Assembly: GCA_001723855.1 (NCBI GenBank)
Contig: MCBC01000078.1
Coordinates: 1-6,363 of the forward strand
Reading direction: 5' to 3'
DNA length: 6,363 nucleotides
From: Candidatus Altarchaeales archaeon WOR_SM1_86-2
GTDB taxonomy: Archaea > Altiarchaeota > Altiarchaeia > IMC4 > MCBC01
Shown here: positions 454-6,259 of the stretch, in pieces
Numbering within the stretch: the first letter of the stretch is position 1
Layout of the letters: every line of letters starts with the position of its first letter
Translations under genes and position numbers: made by a program
Notes under the pieces: model-generated
The model's database searches: none
What the model was told of the DNA's origin: nothing
What the model saw: the letters and a program-made list of their open reading frames with translations, nothing else

Positions 454-1074
454 CTATAGCCTCTTTGAAATAAAATAAAATGCAGCAAAGAGTAGAATGC
501 ATAATATAACGGCACCGAAAATATATTGGAGGGAATATTCGTAGCCTTTTCCTGCCCATGCGTTTATAATCTTTTCCTCCCCTGTATTGATCTCTTTCAA
601 ATAAATCCTGTTTTCCGATAAATGCGAGCGCTCGGACCCCAAAATATCTCTGAGATTCTCTAATTCGCTGTCCAGTTCACTTATGGCATTCCTTTCCATC
701 TCATCCTCCACGAGTAACCTATCACCCCTGCCGAGGGAATAGAATTGCGAATCCACCCTCCAGAGAAACTTTTTTCTCGTGCTCACAACCACCAGTGTTT
801 TCTCCACCCTGCACGGAAATTCAAGCAGCGGGATCTCAACATCATGGTTGGAGAAGTTACTTTTGAATCTCAATACGACCATGTCCCCCTCTTTTTCCAC
901 GATATTGTCACCCCATTCCGGAGAAAAATCCGCATCCATATCCTGCCCCCTGATCAAACAAAAACCCTCCACGGCTTCATCCGTGACCTTGAGGTCATAC
1001 ACCGCCGAGTTTATACTGCCTGCGGAAACCCCCGTCCCGAGCAGGGTTAAAAGAATAAACACCCCTATTTTCAT
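454..1074 (-). CDS. Exported protein with signal peptide and C-terminal membrane anchor
   Basis: This encodes 206 residues of unknown function. The N-terminus has a hydrophobic stretch ending in VSA-GS near residue 18, a typical signal-peptide cleavage site. Residues about 19-125 look beta-rich and hold two cysteines (39 and 88) that could form a disulfide outside the cell. Residues about 126-165 are charged and helical with heptad-like leucines, perhaps a short coiled coil. Residues 183-203 form one membrane helix, followed by a short basic tail (SKRL). The inferred topology is type I: ectodomain outside, C-terminus inside. The ATG at 1074 is chosen because the signal peptide starts there. 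No Shine-Dalgarno motif is seen. The gene lies 43 bases downstream of the Yip1-like gene, either in the same operon or from a promoter in that gap. I do not recognise a named family. Confidence 0.85.
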   Translation of the reverse strand: MKIGVFILLTLLGTGVSAGSINSAVYDLKVTDEAVEGFCLIRGQDMDADFSPEWGDNIVEKEGDMVVLRFKSNFSNHDVEIPLLEFPCRVEKTLVVVSTRKKFLWRVDSQFYSLGRGDRLLVEDEMERNAISELDSELENLRDILGSERSHLSENRIYLKEINTGEEKIINAWAGKGYEYSLQYIFGAVILCILLFAAFYFISKRL

Positions 1075-1117: not shown

Positions 1118-1804
1118 TCATAAAAAATCAAGTTCCTCAAAAAATGATTGATAATAGTGGAAATACGGTCTCAGCAGCCACACCAGCTGAAATCCGACAA
1201 GCAGCGTGAGAATTCCCCCGACCATGAGAGGTATAAGCCAGAGAGGCAGTTCCGATCCCTTAACGTCTGCTTCATCCTCCCCTGCCTTTTTCTCCATAAC
1301 TTCTCTTCCAAGCACGTTCTTTGCACCGGCCAGCAGATAAACGGCTCCGCACAACCCTGCCAACGCAAACAATGCATAGTGTATGCCGTGTATCAAAATA
1401 TGCGAGTCGGTGGTTAGAGAAAAGACAAAAACAACGGGCGAAAATGAAACTAAAACGGTGGATGCGATCGAATAACTCACGGAAAGCAGAGAGAGCATCT
1501 GTTTGAAATTTACTCTCAGCCCGATCAACGCGCCTATGACAAAGTATGCCGGGGAGGTAGCATAGAGGGGTATTAAAAGCAAAAGCGGCATCTTCACCAT
1601 ATCCATCGGGATAACGATGGGGTAAGTTTTTCCTGCAAACAAACCCATCACCGCGCCGTAGATCGCACAGAAAAATACGATCGTCAGAGCCGAGCCGAGC
1701 AGGTACCTGTTAAGATTTCTCTCTTCTTTGATTTCATCAAATACCCTTTTCCTTTCCCTCAAAAATTCTATAAATACCGCATATCCTTGCTTATTTTTTT
1801 CCAT
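1118..1804 (-). CDS. Yip1-like polytopic membrane protein
   Basis: This encodes 228 residues. A charged cytosolic-looking N-terminus (1-30, with EFLRERKRVFDEIKEE) precedes about five membrane helices, at roughly 34-56, 72-95, 105-130, 139-162 and 187-211. A charged loop (165-185) sits before the last helix. The second segment starts KMPLLLLIPLYATSPAYF and the last contains VGFQLVWLLRPYF. From memory these resemble a prokaryotic Yip1-like family, often labelled 'actin-binding WH2 domain-containing protein', whose C-terminus carries a G-x-Q-x-x-W-x-L-R-P-F-like motif. Its biochemical role is unknown; that label should not be read as function. The ATG at 1804 follows an A-rich stretch without a Shine-Dalgarno motif. 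It overlaps the possible 61-codon frame upstream by 37 bases and probably shares its promoter, module A. Confidence 0.85.
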   Translation of the reverse strand: MEKNKQGYAVFIEFLRERKRVFDEIKEERNLNRYLLGSALTIVFFCAIYGAVMGLFAGKTYPIVIPMDMVKMPLLLLIPLYATSPAYFVIGALIGLRVNFKQMLSLLSVSYSIASTVLVSFSPVVFVFSLTTDSHILIHGIHYALFALAGLCGAVYLLAGAKNVLGREVMEKKAGEDEADVKGSELPLWLIPLMVGGILTLLVGFQLVWLLRPYFHYYQSFFEELDFL

Positions 1805-1953
1805 TTTTTATTTGTTTTGATTTTAGATGATACCGGGTAAGATACTGAAGCGGGTTTGCGTATAACATTTCTGCAGTCCCTGAAGTTTTGCACGCGGCAT
1901 GCCACCATCTCTCCAATTACCATTCCGGGATTTATCTTTTGATTGTTTTTCAT
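1768..1953 (-). CDS. Possible small leaderless protein, 61 residues
   Basis: An ATG at 1953 opens a 61-codon frame beginning MKNNQKINPGMVIGEM and ending with a lysine-rich tail. It has two cysteines (19 and 27) and no membrane helix. The case for it is positional: the ATG lies 31 bases past the centre of the TATA-like box in module A, matching the spacing of the start at 4834 to module B. That would make the transcript nearly leaderless at this ATG. It overlaps the start of the Yip1-like gene by 37 bases. The case against is its short length, lack of any family resemblance, and the lysine-rich end, which could simply reflect A-rich DNA. The region may instead be a long 5' leader for the Yip1-like gene. 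Confidence 0.35.
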   Translation of the reverse strand: MKNNQKINPGMVIGEMVACRVQNFRDCRNVIRKPASVSYPVSSKIKTNKKWKKISKDMRYL

Positions 1954-1971: not shown

Positions 1972-2033
1972 TGAAACAACTAATAAATTCATTATGAAAT
2001 GCGTTTCACAGGGGCGTGAAATGTGTTTCCCGG
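1972..2033 (-). promoter_or_regulatory. Promoter-operator module A
   Basis: This matches 4851-4912 at 51 of 62 positions without gaps. It holds two palindromic sites, GTGAAATGTGTTTCCC (2016-2031) and ATGAAATGCGTTTCAC (1994-2009), exactly 22 bases apart, about two helical turns. A third half-site TGAAA (1972-1976) lies 23 bases further. On the minus strand the TATA-like ATTTATTAG (1980-1988) lies between the second site and the half-site. The expected transcription start is near 1957, just before the ATG at 1953. Sites upstream of the TATA box could serve an activator or a repressor. The upstream end is 8 bases from the stop codon of the lipoprotein gene. Confidence 0.6.
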
Positions 2034-2041
2034 CATCTAAA

Positions 2042-3508
2042 TTAATCAGCACCCATATCAAATACACCTTTTTTATAGCAAACATTTTTTCCGTATTCAT
2101 CCCGGTAATCGAGATAACCGAAATAGTATCTTTCGCCTTTACCTTCTCTGTAGAGATATACCGCAAGTTGAAGATAGCAGTCGTCATAACACCCTGTTTG
2201 ATTTTTAACATCCGCACATTTACCGCTGCATAAACTTGGATCTTCCCATCTAAGTGCGACATCCCCCAGGCACCTTAACCTGCAGTCCTTTATTCCTATA
2301 TCACTGCAGTAACCGGGATTTCGTGTCAAACCAAGACAGGCAAGTTTGAAATCGTAACCCCTTACTTTTCCGCACAACACGTCATTTTCGCTCATGATCG
2401 CTATGTCAAAATAACATTCATCCTTCATTTTCAAATCATTTATCTTTCCGCAAAATGCCTCGTCCCCGAGGAGTCTTGCAAAAGAAAAATAGCAGTATCC
2501 CGTGTATTCCACAGAATCGATTTTTTCACAGAGCAGGGAGTTGTTTGTTTTTCTTGCTAAATTCCAGAAGCACTCATCCCTGAACATGCACTTTGCTATT
2601 TCCTCGCAGTGAGTTTCATGATAATCCTCATACTTAATTCCATGTTTGCACCGCTCCCTGATATCTATATTCTCAACTTCTTCACATATTGATGTGTCAT
2701 TATTCATTTCTGCGGCATCCTTATAACAATAATCCCGCAACAGCACATCCCCCCCGCTCATCATCCCGCAAAGGGATGCATTCCCCGCCGCCCTCGCTAA
2801 TTTCCGGTAGCACAGGTCCTTATCAGGTCCCAGGTCTCTATATAAGGTTTCACAGATATTTTCGTCATATACATTCAGTTTACCGTCCTCTTCCCTTACG
2901 GCATACTCGTATGTTTTTTTGTCGTCCGTCTCCAGGGTTACGGTATTTTTTTCTTCGTTAAGTTTGAGTGCTACGGAGTGTTCACCCTTTGTGACGGTGA
3001 TTGTTTTATTGTCCGCACTCTTTCTGACTTCGGCATTTTCTGCCCACGACAACCCCCGGCTGCCTATCAGGAATTCTTCTATAAACCATTCGCTGTACCA
3101 CTCGCTGTCATTTCTTAAGATGTCATTCCAGCTGAATAAATATCTCACATCATCCGGAACTTCCGGTTTTATCTCCTCTTGATTATCATATATATGAAAT
3201 TTCACATAACATCCGTCTCTAACATCCTCTTCCTCAATTTCATCACAAAAATCTGCGCTGTTGTGTTTAATTGCCAGATGATAATTTCTTTTGTCCGGAT
3301 TTGTGATCCTGTCAAATTCTTCAATGCGCACAAAACAGTCATCTTTTGTGTCAATATTCGTAATTTTTTCGCATATTTCTGCCGGCAGGGGAGCATCAGG
3401 GATGGAATATCTGGGGTAAGAAGTAAGGACTTTATCTTCAATAATGCACCCGCTGATTAATGCGATTGCGATTATTATTCCAGGTAATATTTTTTGATAA
3501 TTTTCCAT
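2042..3508 (-). CDS. Cysteine-repeat surface lipoprotein
   Basis: This encodes 488 residues, with an N-terminal hydrophobic segment ending in the lipobox LISG-C21, so it is predicted to be lipid-anchored on the outer face of the membrane. Apart from Cys21 there are 27 cysteines with a strict rhythm: pairs 12 residues apart (14 in two repeats), with usually 14 to the next pair, giving a 26-residue unit. Examples start at Cys275, 301, 327, 353 and 379, with the pattern LCxKI then KDECYxxIA. Two units precede (Cys46/58 and 88/100) and about nine follow (219-477) an inserted domain at about 118-213. That insert begins near FSWNDI and is beta-rich at its end; I remember similar FSW(D/N)-containing domains from euryarchaeal hypothetical proteins. 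The repeats probably form disulfide-linked helical hairpins. Ligand and role are unknown. It is the last gene of operon B and overlaps the YdjM-like gene by 34 bases. Confidence 0.85.
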   Translation of the reverse strand: MENYQKILPGIIIAIALISGCIIEDKVLTSYPRYSIPDAPLPAEICEKITNIDTKDDCFVRIEEFDRITNPDKRNYHLAIKHNSADFCDEIEEEDVRDGCYVKFHIYDNQEEIKPEVPDDVRYLFSWNDILRNDSEWYSEWFIEEFLIGSRGLSWAENAEVRKSADNKTITVTKGEHSVALKLNEEKNTVTLETDDKKTYEYAVREEDGKLNVYDENICETLYRDLGPDKDLCYRKLARAAGNASLCGMMSGGDVLLRDYCYKDAAEMNNDTSICEEVENIDIRERCKHGIKYEDYHETHCEEIAKCMFRDECFWNLARKTNNSLLCEKIDSVEYTGYCYFSFARLLGDEAFCGKINDLKMKDECYFDIAIMSENDVLCGKVRGYDFKLACLGLTRNPGYCSDIGIKDCRLRCLGDVALRWEDPSLCSGKCADVKNQTGCYDDCYLQLAVYLYREGKGERYYFGYLDYRDEYGKNVCYKKGVFDMGAD

Positions 3509-3987
3509 TTTCGTTTATTATTTATAAAAAATTTTATCAATAAAGTCATAATAATTGCTAAAATCACAAGCCCTAATGTCAGACAATCTACTGCCCAGAA
3601 TGCTTCTATCCCGATCGGTTCATAGGAGAGCGGGTAAAGCAGAAGATAATGATGAACGCCCCCAAACGGATACATGGTGATGTCCAAGGCAAAATGAGAT
3701 GCTATTCCAATAACAAAAAGTGCTAATACGACCTTAAAATCCTTAAAAAACGATGCTGTAAAAACCCCGAGCAGGAATGCTCCAAGCGGGCTGTGCATAA
3801 CGACCATGATACTTTCTGCCGCATTCATGTTAAAAAACATCATGGGAGCGGCTAAAAACACTTTTGCATCAGGCAGTATCGAGCCCAAAAGTATCACTGC
3901 CCTGTATCTCTCAACCCCTTCATACCTCATATGCAATACAAGGTATATGATCCATCCAAGCGCAATGTGCGCAACCAAACACGGCAT
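3475..3987 (-). CDS. YdjM-like membrane-bound predicted metal-dependent hydrolase
   Basis: This encodes 170 residues with about four to five membrane helices. The motif set of the YdjM/DUF457 family can be read in order: His7 in the first helix (LVAHIALG), the SILPD motif with Asp40, His65-Ser66 (MHSPLG), then SHFALD with His98 and Asp102. A further His112-His113 pair follows. These histidines and aspartates are thought to bind metal in the family. The family is called 'membrane-bound metal-dependent hydrolase' from sequence; substrates are generally not established, so only the fold class is claimed. The C-terminus is very basic (NNKRKWKIIKKYY) and its coding bases overlap the lipoprotein start. 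The ATG at 3987 lies 5 bases after the upstream stop, implying co-translation. An alternative reading as a general integral membrane protein is less likely given the ordered motifs. Confidence 0.82.
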   Translation of the reverse strand: MPCLVAHIALGWIIYLVLHMRYEGVERYRAVILLGSILPDAKVFLAAPMMFFNMNAAESIMVVMHSPLGAFLLGVFTASFFKDFKVVLALFVIGIASHFALDITMYPFGGVHHYLLLYPLSYEPIGIEAFWAVDCLTLGLVILAIIMTLLIKFFINNKRKWKIIKKYYLE

Positions 3988-3992
3988 TTTAT

Positions 3993-4346
3993 TTATTTTT
4001 CCAGTGCACTTAACTTATTCTCTAATTCATCCAACCTCTCCAAAATCTTATCGTGGTTCTCAAACACCCTCCTCTGAACAGGGTTTAAGCGGGCATATAT
4101 CTCTGCCTCCCTCTGGTATATCCTTGATTGTTTAAGTTCGATGTAACCCAGGAGTAGCATAAGCCCCATTGAAGCCGCCAGCACAACCACCAGCCAGTAT
4201 CTTCCGCTCAGGAATTCAAAGTACGGATACTGCTTCATGCTCGTAACCGTGACAAATACCATCATCAAAAATGTCAGGTACCCCACCCAGTATCTTCCCC
4301 TGTCAAATACTATCTTCGCCTTAATTAACCTGTCTTTCATTTCCAT
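3993..4346 (-). CDS. Small membrane protein with two helices and a coiled-coil tail
   Basis: This encodes 117 residues. A basic N-terminus (KDRLIKAKIVFDRGRYW) leads into a helix at about 19-36, then a short loop and a second helix at about 50-68. The remaining 48 residues are charged. Residues 97-115 (NHDKILERLDELENKLSAL) have heptad leucines typical of a short coiled coil, so the protein may oligomerise or bind a partner on the cytosolic side. The start overlaps the end of the upstream gene by 10 bases, and the stop lies 5 bases before the next ATG, placing it inside operon B. I do not assign a family or function. A second ATG two codons downstream (4340) is an equally possible start. Confidence 0.82.
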   Translation of the reverse strand: MEMKDRLIKAKIVFDRGRYWVGYLTFLMMVFVTVTSMKQYPYFEFLSGRYWLVVVLAASMGLMLLLGYIELKQSRIYQREAEIYARLNPVQRRVFENHDKILERLDELENKLSALEK

Positions 4347-4834
4347 CTTAATTTTACGTTCAATCCCCTGAAATCAATCTCCCATTCCCTCAGAATGAAA
4401 TAAATCAAAAGTAAAACCGCCGAGAGGTTCAGCGGCGCAAACATAAGTTTTACATTCCCTGTTTTGTAAATCTCATCCGCCATTACATGCACTTTGTTAT
4501 CTTCCAGCAGCACTGTTCCGCCAACCCGGATGCCGTCACCGTTTTTGATTTGGTGTGCTATCGGAGTATTTCCGTCCACCACAGCATATATTTTCTCGCA
4601 TCCTATGAACGGGTATTTTTCCAGTTCAAATTCCATTAAACCATCCCTTGTTTCAATCCCCGTTACCTCACCCCCCGTATAAACCTCCAATCCATCCATG
4701 CCCTCTTTATTCTCAATTATATATGAAAATGGAACCTGTGGGGGTTTTAAATGCTCCGGGGTTTCATAAATGCTGAAGATGCACAACCCAAGCAGTAATA
4801 CCAGAGACGCCGCACCAGTGATTCTTGTTATCAT
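4337..4834 (-). CDS. Membrane-anchored protein with small beta (OB-like) domain
   Basis: This encodes 165 residues from the ATG at 4834. One membrane helix near the N-terminus (residues about 4-22) is followed by an extracytoplasmic domain of about 110 residues, and a second helix lies at about 135-148 before a basic tail. The middle part alternates beta strands and glycine turns (GGEVTGIETRDG, then GDGIRVGGTVLLEDNKVHV), which resembles an OB-fold, though I cannot prove it. The frame extends to a GTG at 4858, but that codon lies upstream of or beside the expected transcription start. The TATA-like box at 4859-4867 is 29 bases before the ATG at 4834, favouring a leaderless start there. It is the first gene of operon B and overlaps the next by 10 bases. 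Function unknown; the neighbours suggest the envelope. Confidence 0.8.
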   Translation of the reverse strand: MITRITGAASLVLLLGLCIFSIYETPEHLKPPQVPFSYIIENKEGMDGLEVYTGGEVTGIETRDGLMEFELEKYPFIGCEKIYAVVDGNTPIAHQIKNGDGIRVGGTVLLEDNKVHVMADEIYKTGNVKLMFAPLNLSAVLLLIYFILREWEIDFRGLNVKLRWK

Positions 4835-4850
4835 TTTTAAACAAAAACGA

Positions 4851-4912
4851 TGAAACACCTAATAAATCGCGGGTGAAATGTGTTTCACAGATGCGTGAAA
4901 TGTGTTTTCCGG
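4851..4912 (-). promoter_or_regulatory. Promoter-operator module B
   Basis: This is the counterpart of 1972-2033, 62 bases, same order of parts. Its sites are GTGAAATGTGTTTCAC (4873-4888, a perfect 6-bp dyad around TGTG) and GTGAAATGTGTTTTCC (4895-4910), 22 bases apart. A half-site TGAAA at 4851-4855 lies 23 bases from the site centred in the module. The minus-strand TATA-like box ATTTATTAG is at 4859-4867. The expected start is near 4836, giving an almost leaderless mRNA for the gene at 4834. Conserved arrangement in both modules suggests binding by one regulator. Confidence 0.65.
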
Positions 4913-5073: not shown

Positions 5074-5139
5074 GCATAAACGCAATATTGCGGTTATGCC
5101 CCCAACTTGGAGGGATAAACGCAATACTGCGTTTATCCC
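5074..5139. repeat. Tandem palindromes with a shared core
   Basis: The first palindrome (5074-5099) pairs GCATAA with TTATGC and CGCAAT with ATTGCG around one mismatch. The second (5112-5139) is a perfect 12-bp stem, GGGATAAACGCA with TGCGTTTATCCC, over an ATAC loop. Both hold ATAAACGCAATA, 39 bases apart. Between them lies a small palindrome, CCAACTTGG (5102-5110). A partial core, TATACGCAAT, recurs at 5145-5154. Candidates are regulator-binding sites or a structured RNA; the position is between divergent genes. Confidence 0.5.
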
Positions 5140-5447: not shown

Positions 5448-5450
5448 ACT

Positions 5451-6005
5451 ATGCGTGAGGAAGATATGATTAATGATATTGTAAAAGAGGGTTACAATAT
5501 CTTCAAGAAGCAATATGTAGCTTTTATCGTTGGCACAGTGATCGCCCTTCTTGGGATGATCTTTATAATTACAATCCCCCCGTTGATTTTCGGGATTTAT
5601 TTCATGTGTATAAAGTCAATAAAAGGGGAGGAAATACAGATTTCTGATGTGTTCAAAGGCTTCAATTATTTTATTACAAGCTGGGTATTGTTCATCGTCG
5701 GTTTTATAGCAATAGTTGTCGGTTTAATCTTTTTGGTAATCCCAGGGCTGCTTTTGATGGTGCTTTTCCAATATGCCATTGCAGTAGCGATACTTGAAAA
5801 TAGGGGTGCGATTAGTTCGCTCAAGAGAAGTTATGAAATAGGAAAAAAGAATTTCGCCTTTTCACTAGTGCTCTGGATTTTAATGGCAGTGATAGAAAGT
5901 GTTGGAGGACTCACCCGTATAGGTGTGTTGATTACGATTCCTTTCACTGCACTTTGTGTTTCCCTCGCGACCCATAAATTGACTGCAAATACTAAAGCCG
6001 CTTAA
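5451..6005 (+). CDS. Polytopic membrane protein, DUF975-like
   Basis: This encodes 184 residues. An acidic then amphipathic N-terminus (MREEDMINDIVKEGYNIFKKQ) precedes about four to five membrane helices, at roughly 23-50, 76-97, 98-115, 136-154 and 157-173. A soluble loop (52-75, with KGEEIQISDVFKGF) follows the first helix pair, and a conserved-looking stretch, ENRGAISSLKRSYEIGKKNF (116-135), precedes the fourth. The layout and the IPGLLLMVLFQYA motif resemble DUF975 and the membrane domain of glycerophosphodiester phosphodiesterase proteins; there is no catalytic domain. Function is unknown. The start is set by the ribosome-binding motif GGTGAT. The gene stands alone, divergent from the minus-strand operons, with its own TATA box and palindromic operator. 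The upstream in-frame extension of 27 codons contains the promoter and is discarded. Confidence 0.85.
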   Translation: MREEDMINDIVKEGYNIFKKQYVAFIVGTVIALLGMIFIITIPPLIFGIYFMCIKSIKGEEIQISDVFKGFNYFITSWVLFIVGFIAIVVGLIFLVIPGLLLMVLFQYAIAVAILENRGAISSLKRSYEIGKKNFAFSLVLWILMAVIESVGGLTRIGVLITIPFTALCVSLATHKLTANTKAA

Positions 6006-6140: not shown

Positions 6141-6259
6141 TCGCTCCTACCGTCGCTCGGTGCTATAGCACTCCGATAACAAAGGATTTACGATTCGCTG
6201 TCGCTCATCCAAATTGCTCCCTGCGGTCGCAACTTCGCAAATCCTTATTCCGTTATATC
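6141..6259 (+). repeat. Structured repeat element, copy E2
   Basis: This is related to 263-384 and in the same orientation. Shared blocks are TCGCTCATCCAAATT (6201-6215), AACTTCG (6231-6237) and the end ATTCCGTTATATC (6247-6259). The main stem pairs AAGGATTT (6182-6189) with AAATCCTT (6239-6246) and CGA (6191-6193) with TCG (6235-6237), around one mismatch. An apical hairpin pairs TTGC (6214-6217) with GCAA (6229-6232). As in E1, the stem ends immediately before ATTCCGTTA. A perfect palindrome, GTGCTATAGCAC (6160-6171), lies in its left part. The element is interrupted or bounded at 6259 by the intron-like sequence. Confidence 0.55.

Follow-up and report, generated by a model that had tools for sequence, protein, structure and literature searches.

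What do two nearly identical stretches of 62 nucleotides (nt) do in front of two gene clusters of an uncultured archaeon? We asked this of contig MCBC01000078.1 from Candidatus Altarchaeales archaeon WOR_SM1_86-2, analyzed as one stretch of 6,363 nt with a G+C content of 41% (hereafter the window), in which the two copies, modules A and B, precede what we call operons A and B (Table 1). The modules align without a gap and are identical at 51 of 62 positions, and the best pair of 62-mers in 40 first-order Markov simulations of the window had 34-38 identities, never more than 38. The similarity ends with the modules, as the 60-mers that flank them share only 17/60 and 22/60 positions. Both modules and both operons lie on the minus strand. 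The modules are most likely promoter-operators, a conclusion that is well supported. We further consider it probable, on the comparative sequence evidence below, that in each module an operator brackets a core promoter and is worked by a membrane-anchored regulator with a DUF7343 domain, which would switch operons of envelope proteins, somewhat more likely by activation than by repression.

Read along the minus strand, each module comprises an imperfect palindrome, at 22 nt from it the perfect palindrome TGAAA-N4-TTTCA, a variable spacer of six bases, the box ATTTATTAG, three further bases, a third half-site TTTCA and an ATG. Six of the 11 differences between the modules fall in the six-base spacer, and the ATG lies beyond the center of ATTTATTAG by 31 nt in module A (first base 1953) and by 29 nt in module B (4834). 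An earlier note on this DNA had described the gapless match, the spacings of 22 and 23 nt around a common box, the clustering of differences between palindrome and box, and the distance to the ATG, all of which were borne out in both modules. Its description of two palindromes per module holds for the inner ones, which are perfect, and was slightly generous for the outer ones, which carry one mismatch in module A and two in module B. A scan of the window against Rfam returned nothing at the gathering threshold, and we therefore rejected an RNA element as the identity of the modules.

The same arrangement is present in one relative, Euryarchaeota archaeon ND3_Bin_21 (genome G001, 1.3 Mb; contig L001), and 29 genomes from the phylum of this relative formed the sample for our pattern and protein searches. 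Before the orthologous operon, L001 carries two copies of TGAAACGCATTTCA, 24 nt apart, followed by CTTTATTTA, GTTTCA and an ATG. Counted from the last half-site, the others lie at -47 and -23 in L001 and at -45 and -23 in the window. The palindrome TGAAAYRYRTTTCA occurs at a single place in G001, before this operon. Across the sample, tandem pairs of GAAA-N4-TTTC were found in three genomes (G001, G011 and G022; reversed control, 1) and lone TGAAAYRYRTTTCA palindromes at eight places in seven genomes, six of which have one copy each. A strict DNA pattern of the module had no match in the genome-contig or viral-contig collections.

In G001 this operator has a DUF7343 gene as its neighbor. The first palindrome begins 17 nt past the stop codon of a gene (L001 932-1930) for a protein of 332 amino acids (aa) with an N-terminal ectodomain, a transmembrane (TM) region and a C-terminal DUF7343/MarR-like winged helix. 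DUF7343 (PF24034) is a MarR-like winged helix to which Pfam assigns no function, and the 332-aa protein scores just over its cut-off (27.7 bits, cut-off 27.6). A structure model of the protein (mean predicted local distance difference test score 84.9, predicted template modeling score 0.60) has a beta-rich ectodomain, a long helix at residues 207-240 and a winged-helix-like C-terminus. Twelve relatives of the protein, 33-82% identical over the alignment, keep the C-terminal domain. A PDB sequence search with the regulator had no match; a fold search paired its ectodomain with ribophorin I and M1 aminopeptidase chains at low template modeling scores (0.25-0.36 of the query among the matches listed).

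Evidence that links such operators to DUF7343 genes comes from loci chosen without regard to DNA motifs. A search of the sample with the G001 regulator gave 49 matches in 21 genomes, and the best match from each of 20 genomes defined 20 loci (L053-L072, about 60 kb). These loci contain eight perfect TGAAA-N4-TTTCA palindromes, and all eight lie at most 90 nt 3' of a DUF7343 match; 14 of the 20 loci have no perfect palindrome. At the density of the whole G001 genome, which has 14 such palindromes, 20 stretches of 120 nt would hold about 0.03. The eight palindromes belong to six genomes (G001, G003, G014, G017, G026 and G027), five of them new beyond G001, and in all six a TTTCA follows 18 or 19 nt beyond the palindrome with a TATA-like box between. 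A candidate for the transcription factor gene that the earlier note had suggested looking for, one that co-occurs with the motif in related genomes, lies beside the palindrome in six genomes.

Exact matches to palindrome-N18/19-TTTCA occur at 15 distinct places in the sample. Seven of these start at most 75 nt 3' of a DUF7343 stop codon (the six linked genomes and G028:C110), and four have a promoter-like setting and are not directly beside a DUF7343 gene (G004:C67, G007:C1, G020:C71 and G022:C182). We took G002:C239, G003:C36, G021:C20 and G028:C229, which have no promoter-like setting, as chance. Chance also seems to account for most of the matches with one mismatch (23/26 and 52/66 rows; reversed controls, 5 and 5), two of which were retained by eye (G005:C37 and G014:C20). 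A flexible triple of TTTCA was rejected as a genome-wide signature, as low-complexity and chance matches dominate it. In a hand-picked collection of 24 promoters, half-sites lie at -22 to -24 from the last one, with a TATA-like box between and a third half-site directly after the box, and the ATG lies 19-48 nt past the start of the last half-site in 18 of the 23 that have an open reading frame (ORF). The TTTCA half-sites of the window, 22-23 nt apart with the last just past the TATA-like box, conform to the spacing of 21-24 nt in this proposed class of DUF7343 promoters.

We also compared the repeats behind DUF7343 genes with the genes themselves. Removal of repeated 3' ends and of ends with less than 60 nt of sequence reduced 96 DUF7343 matches to 73 ORFs. 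A TTTCA pair, defined as TTTCA-N17..19-TTTCA inside 120 nt from the stop codon, follows 15 of the 73 (500 shuffles: mean 0.08, largest 2), and one or two hydrophobic segments are present in all 15 encoded regulators, a hint of an outer signal. Other repeats replace TTTCA in a GAAC-type clade, most members of which have 326-415 codons (L068, L071, L118, L123, L132, L133, L135, L137, L145, L150, L156 and L160), and in a GTTCC-type clade (L144, L155 and L157) the half-sites lie 3' of the gene with the last just past a TATA-like box. On a tree of the DUF7343 domain (77 rows, 61 columns; 15 labeled TTTCA, 12 GAAC-type, 3 GTTCC-type and 47 none), the labels together require 16 changes against 27.8 when shuffled, with none of 200 shuffles as low; the GTTCC type forms one clade and the GAAC type needs four changes. 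A recognition-helix pattern also follows the TTTCA pair, which is present in 12 of 20 regulators with the pattern and 3 of 53 without it (Fisher test, 2e-6). The linkage and the partly circular pattern evidence support a family of such modules across the phylum.

Some of the regulators have a CTCGxxCxM loop, and some targets are heavy-metal-associated (HMA), DsbA-like or DsbD/cupredoxin proteins. Two of the promoter-like places above, G020:C71:114709 and G022:C182:541 (L085 and L087), have palindromic-type operators before small HMA proteins. For regulators that have this loop we considered metal or thiol as the signal and did not extend the idea to the window. The informal labels 'Spy-like' and 'SHOCT-like' are not used as evidence; two 'Spy-like' cases had no such Pfam match.

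A second subfamily, with genes of the 136-aa type, points in the same direction. Regulators of 136 aa match DUF7343 clearly (56.9 bits), as do those of 157 aa (47.2 bits), and in both the winged helix is C-terminal. Genes of the 136-aa type were assigned by eye, and all nine loci examined carry one to three arrays of GTTTCA-N15-GTTTCA-N16-GTTTCA or one base off; a tenth locus, L136, stands outside this count. At up to two mismatches the array pattern has 32 matches in the sample, 20 of them exact, three with one mismatch and nine with two, and the reversed pattern has one. The nine look like chance. The 23 matches with no or one mismatch fall in 12 genomes, among which are all 10 genomes with a 136-aa gene (Fisher test, 3e-6). 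An ATG-initiated ORF of at least 60 aa comes first after 19 of the 23 arrays, and 18 of these 19 ORFs have a hydrophobic segment. Six of the array matches were new, two of them near a 136-aa gene (G011 and G020) and four not. In five of the nine loci (L106, L111, L113, L114 and L139) an array stands before the small gene that precedes the regulator, which suggests that the 136-aa regulators may regulate themselves.

From these data we propose how the modules would work. Three TTTCA half-sites, spaced by 22-23 nt (about two helical turns) on one face of the DNA, would surround the TATA-like box, two upstream of it, which with inverted partners make full or partial palindromes, and a third directly downstream. 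Transcription would start about 25 nt past the box, leaderless or nearly so. Dimers of a membrane-anchored one-component regulator, with an outer sensor, one or more TM helices and a cytoplasmic C-terminal DUF7343/MarR-like winged helix, would occupy the sites, perhaps cooperatively, and in the window's own genome the regulator would be orthologous to the 332-aa protein whose gene directly precedes the same operator in G001. The regulator would sense the state of the envelope and switch operons of envelope proteins. The dimers would sit upstream of the transcription factor B recognition element (BRE) and beside TBP, where they would somewhat more likely help TBP and TFB on a poor TATA box than block them. 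Activation through contact with TBP/TFB is favored by the constant distances to the box and by boxes that, by eye, resemble a poor TATA, and the half-site downstream of the box keeps repression in play. The 206-aa product of operon A belongs to the family of the G001 regulator's ectodomain and has no winged helix, so regulator and regulon would share a sensor. Only tentatively do we extend this to an expanded, phylum-wide set of membrane-tethered DUF7343 regulators, whose subfamilies would read different half-site words (TTTCA, GTTCC, GAAC and others), whose phased half-sites would clamp the TATA box, and which would keep the promoter close to the site of its product's export, at the membrane; the 206-aa protein might then, as a product of the regulon, report the same signal or compete for it.

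Several observations weigh against this proposal. The bare 14-mer palindrome, at up to two mismatches, is not enriched in the window (7 seen, shuffle mean 7.77), and the significance of the module therefore sits in the composite. The window contig has no DUF7343 gene beside its operators, and none of its scanned ORFs encodes a DUF7343-type regulator; the single dimeric regulator of the earlier note is thus made concrete as a candidate, in the membrane-anchored DUF7343 family, and is not proven. The domain itself is widespread, with 88 matches in 28 of the 29 genomes and in 9 of 14 control genomes (4 over the cut-off), so its presence alone says little. A TTTCA pair also lies downstream of 5 of 142 other ORFs in the motif-blind loci (Fisher test, 1e-4), three of the five being neighboring genes' arrays; this control replaced an early one (13/528 ORFs) whose loci were partly motif-selected. 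The TTTCA label alone is weakly clustered on the tree (11 changes, 13/500 shuffles as low), and among the regulators a TTTCA pair 3' of the gene is missing for 8 of the 20 that show the matching helix pattern and present for 3 of the 53 that do not. We had already inspected the sequences when we defined the motif classes and the helix pattern, and classes B and C were redefined in the same way (earlier 5 and 0 rows, later 3 and 12). The array evidence is partly circular, as 19 of the 23 arrays lie within 2.5 kb of a 136-aa gene and 17 of these 19 were known when the pattern was made. Lastly, a consensus of 37 nt, built from both window modules and the one in G001, was found at one place in the 29 genomes at up to three mismatches, and the exact module therefore seems to serve few operons. 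A large regulon for it is not supported in G001, the one relative with the module.

The same sites could instead serve an ordinary soluble transcription factor whose gene lies elsewhere, and the neighboring DUF7343 gene would then be either one of the targets or a separate part of the same pathway. The four exact promoter-like places away from DUF7343 genes and the want of a regulator gene among the scanned ORFs of the window would suit such a factor, and we infer, rather than observe, that DUF7343 proteins bind the operators. However, at 7 of the 15 exact places the operator stands between the 3' end of the DUF7343 gene and the next operon, which argues that this gene is not simply its target, and one shared, unrelated factor leaves unexplained why different DUF7343 clades go with different repeats. 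We consider the soluble factor unlikely. Much less likely still is a mobile or duplicated repeat, or a terminator of the preceding gene, as the identity of the 62-nt copies. There are two similar copies in one contig, module A starts 8 nt past a stop codon, and in relatives the palindrome likewise comes closely after one. Against this, the similarity is confined to the sites and the box, G001 has a single locus, both window copies precede ORFs, copies away from DUF7343 genes (G007, G020, G022 and G014:C20) keep both box and spacing, and the Rfam scan was negative. The preference of the earlier note for a promoter over a mobile repeat draws support from the orthologous operon of G001, which has the same arrangement, and from other genomes, in which operators keep the same distance to a TATA-like box.

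A DUF7343 regulator could also repress from these very sites, by occluding the TATA box until an outer signal releases the protein, which we regard as a real, if lesser, possibility. MarR-type factors are often repressors, and the third half-site stands directly after the box throughout the 24 collected promoters. Against repression, two more sites are present upstream of the box at a fixed distance, an arrangement seen with the activators ArnR (PMC6396743) and, by its authors' inference, CsmR (PMC13286277).

The nearest precedent for the promoter-operators proposed here is ArnR/ArnR1 of Sulfolobus acidocaldarius. These are membrane-bound one-component regulators with an N-terminal helix-turn-helix and two C-terminal TM domains, which act on surface-structure genes through two inverted-repeat boxes, TCGAC-N5-GTCGA, upstream of BRE/TATA (PMC6396743). 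The window likewise has paired inverted repeats, the outer one of each pair imperfect, upstream of a TATA-like box of surface genes, and the proposed regulator would likewise be archaeal, membrane-bound and one-component. In contrast to ArnR, the candidate winged helix is C-terminal (in the G001, 136-aa and 157-aa proteins) and of the DUF7343 family, the half-site is TTTCA, and an extra third half-site lies downstream of the box. With a different domain order, family and site, the window system would work like ArnR without being a member of its group. A DNA-binding domain joined to a TM region also places the candidate in the class of transmembrane transcription regulators, which is widespread and common in archaea; in the main text of the survey we found, by the terms searched, no mention of MarR or Altiarchaeota and no operators for the DUF7343 family (PMC10269533). 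CsmR of Haloferax volcanii controls motility genes from a semi-palindromic site, TATCA-N4-TGATA, placed relative to the TATA box, which is similar in form and different in sequence, and membrane anchoring of CsmR was not found in the available text (PMC13286277).

Neither DUF7343 by name nor such a regulator-operator system was found in the literature searched, and to that extent the earlier note's claim of an undescribed regulon stands. Compared with the Pfam entry, function and sites are newly proposed here, from comparisons within a single phylum. How such uncultured archaea control their genes has hardly been explored. Here a regulator family without known function is proposed along with its operators and targets, and its several subfamilies offer recognition helices and sites for comparison. 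The function of DUF7343 can be put to the test with one purified domain and a pair of 62-base DNAs, and the system offers a way to ask how a protein fixed in the membrane acts at an archaeal core promoter.

Table 1. Modules and genes of operons B and A, with positions in the window.
Feature	Positions	Strand	Remarks
Module B, promoter-operator (most likely) of four-gene operon B	4851..4912	-	62-nt repeat; 51/62 positions shared with module A
Module B, distal operator, imperfect palindrome	4896..4909	-	2 mismatches to TGAAA-N4-TTTCA
Module B, proximal operator, perfect palindrome TGAAA-N4-TTTCA	4874..4887	-	
Module B, TATA-like box ATTTATTAG	4859..4867	-	TATA role proposed from ATG 29 nt past center and from relatives
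Module B, third half-site TTTCA, directly downstream of box	4851..4855	-	
Module A, promoter-operator (most likely) of operon A	1972..2033	-	62-nt repeat, 51/62 identical to module B
Module A, distal operator, imperfect palindrome	2017..2030	-	1 mismatch to TGAAA-N4-TTTCA
Module A, proximal operator, perfect palindrome TGAAA-N4-TTTCA	1995..2008	-	
Module A, TATA-like box ATTTATTAG	1980..1988	-	
Module A, third half-site TTTCA	1972..1976	-	
165-aa protein, first gene of operon B, two hydrophobic segments	4337..4834	-	No confident Pfam match
117-aa protein, one hydrophobic segment	3993..4346	-	Operon B
170-aa membrane protein, YdjM family	3475..3987	-	PF04307 above cut-off
488-aa cysteine-rich protein (28 Cys), lipobox-like N-terminus, last gene of operon B	2042..3508	-	
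61-aa ORF opened by module A ATG; doubtful gene, overlaps next ORF	1768..1953	-	No hydrophobic segment, no Pfam match
228-aa Yip1-like membrane protein	1118..1804	-	PF04893 E 1.3e-5, just below cut-off; ortholog L001 2794-3420, 57% identity
206-aa exported protein, C-terminal TM	454..1074	-	32% identity to L001 932-1930, 35% to L001 3417-4067

The genes behind the modules fit a role in the envelope, as had been proposed: six of the seven ORFs of the two operons have hydrophobic segments, the exception being the 61-aa ORF. Module B heads four closely packed ORFs (4834 down to 2042), and module A, which follows the stop codon of the last of these, precedes the doubtful 61-aa ORF, the Yip1-like protein and the exported protein. 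Relatives of the 488-aa protein are few and distant (10 other proteins at E <= 1e-3, identity at most 36%). The Yip1-like protein matched G001 only among the 29 genomes; its search of the genome-contig collection returned L001 and a weak planctomycete match, that of the viral-contig collection had no match, and a further relative, P0021, comes from a Candidatus Altiarchaeota metagenome-assembled genome.

Two other repeats lie outside the operons. Between module B and a divergent gene (5448-6005) there is an inverted repeat of 30 nt at 5076-5136, 87% complementary with its arms 1 nt apart. Near the two ends of the window, positions 327-384 and 6201-6259 are alike (about 77% over 60 nt) and may represent a dispersed intergenic repeat.

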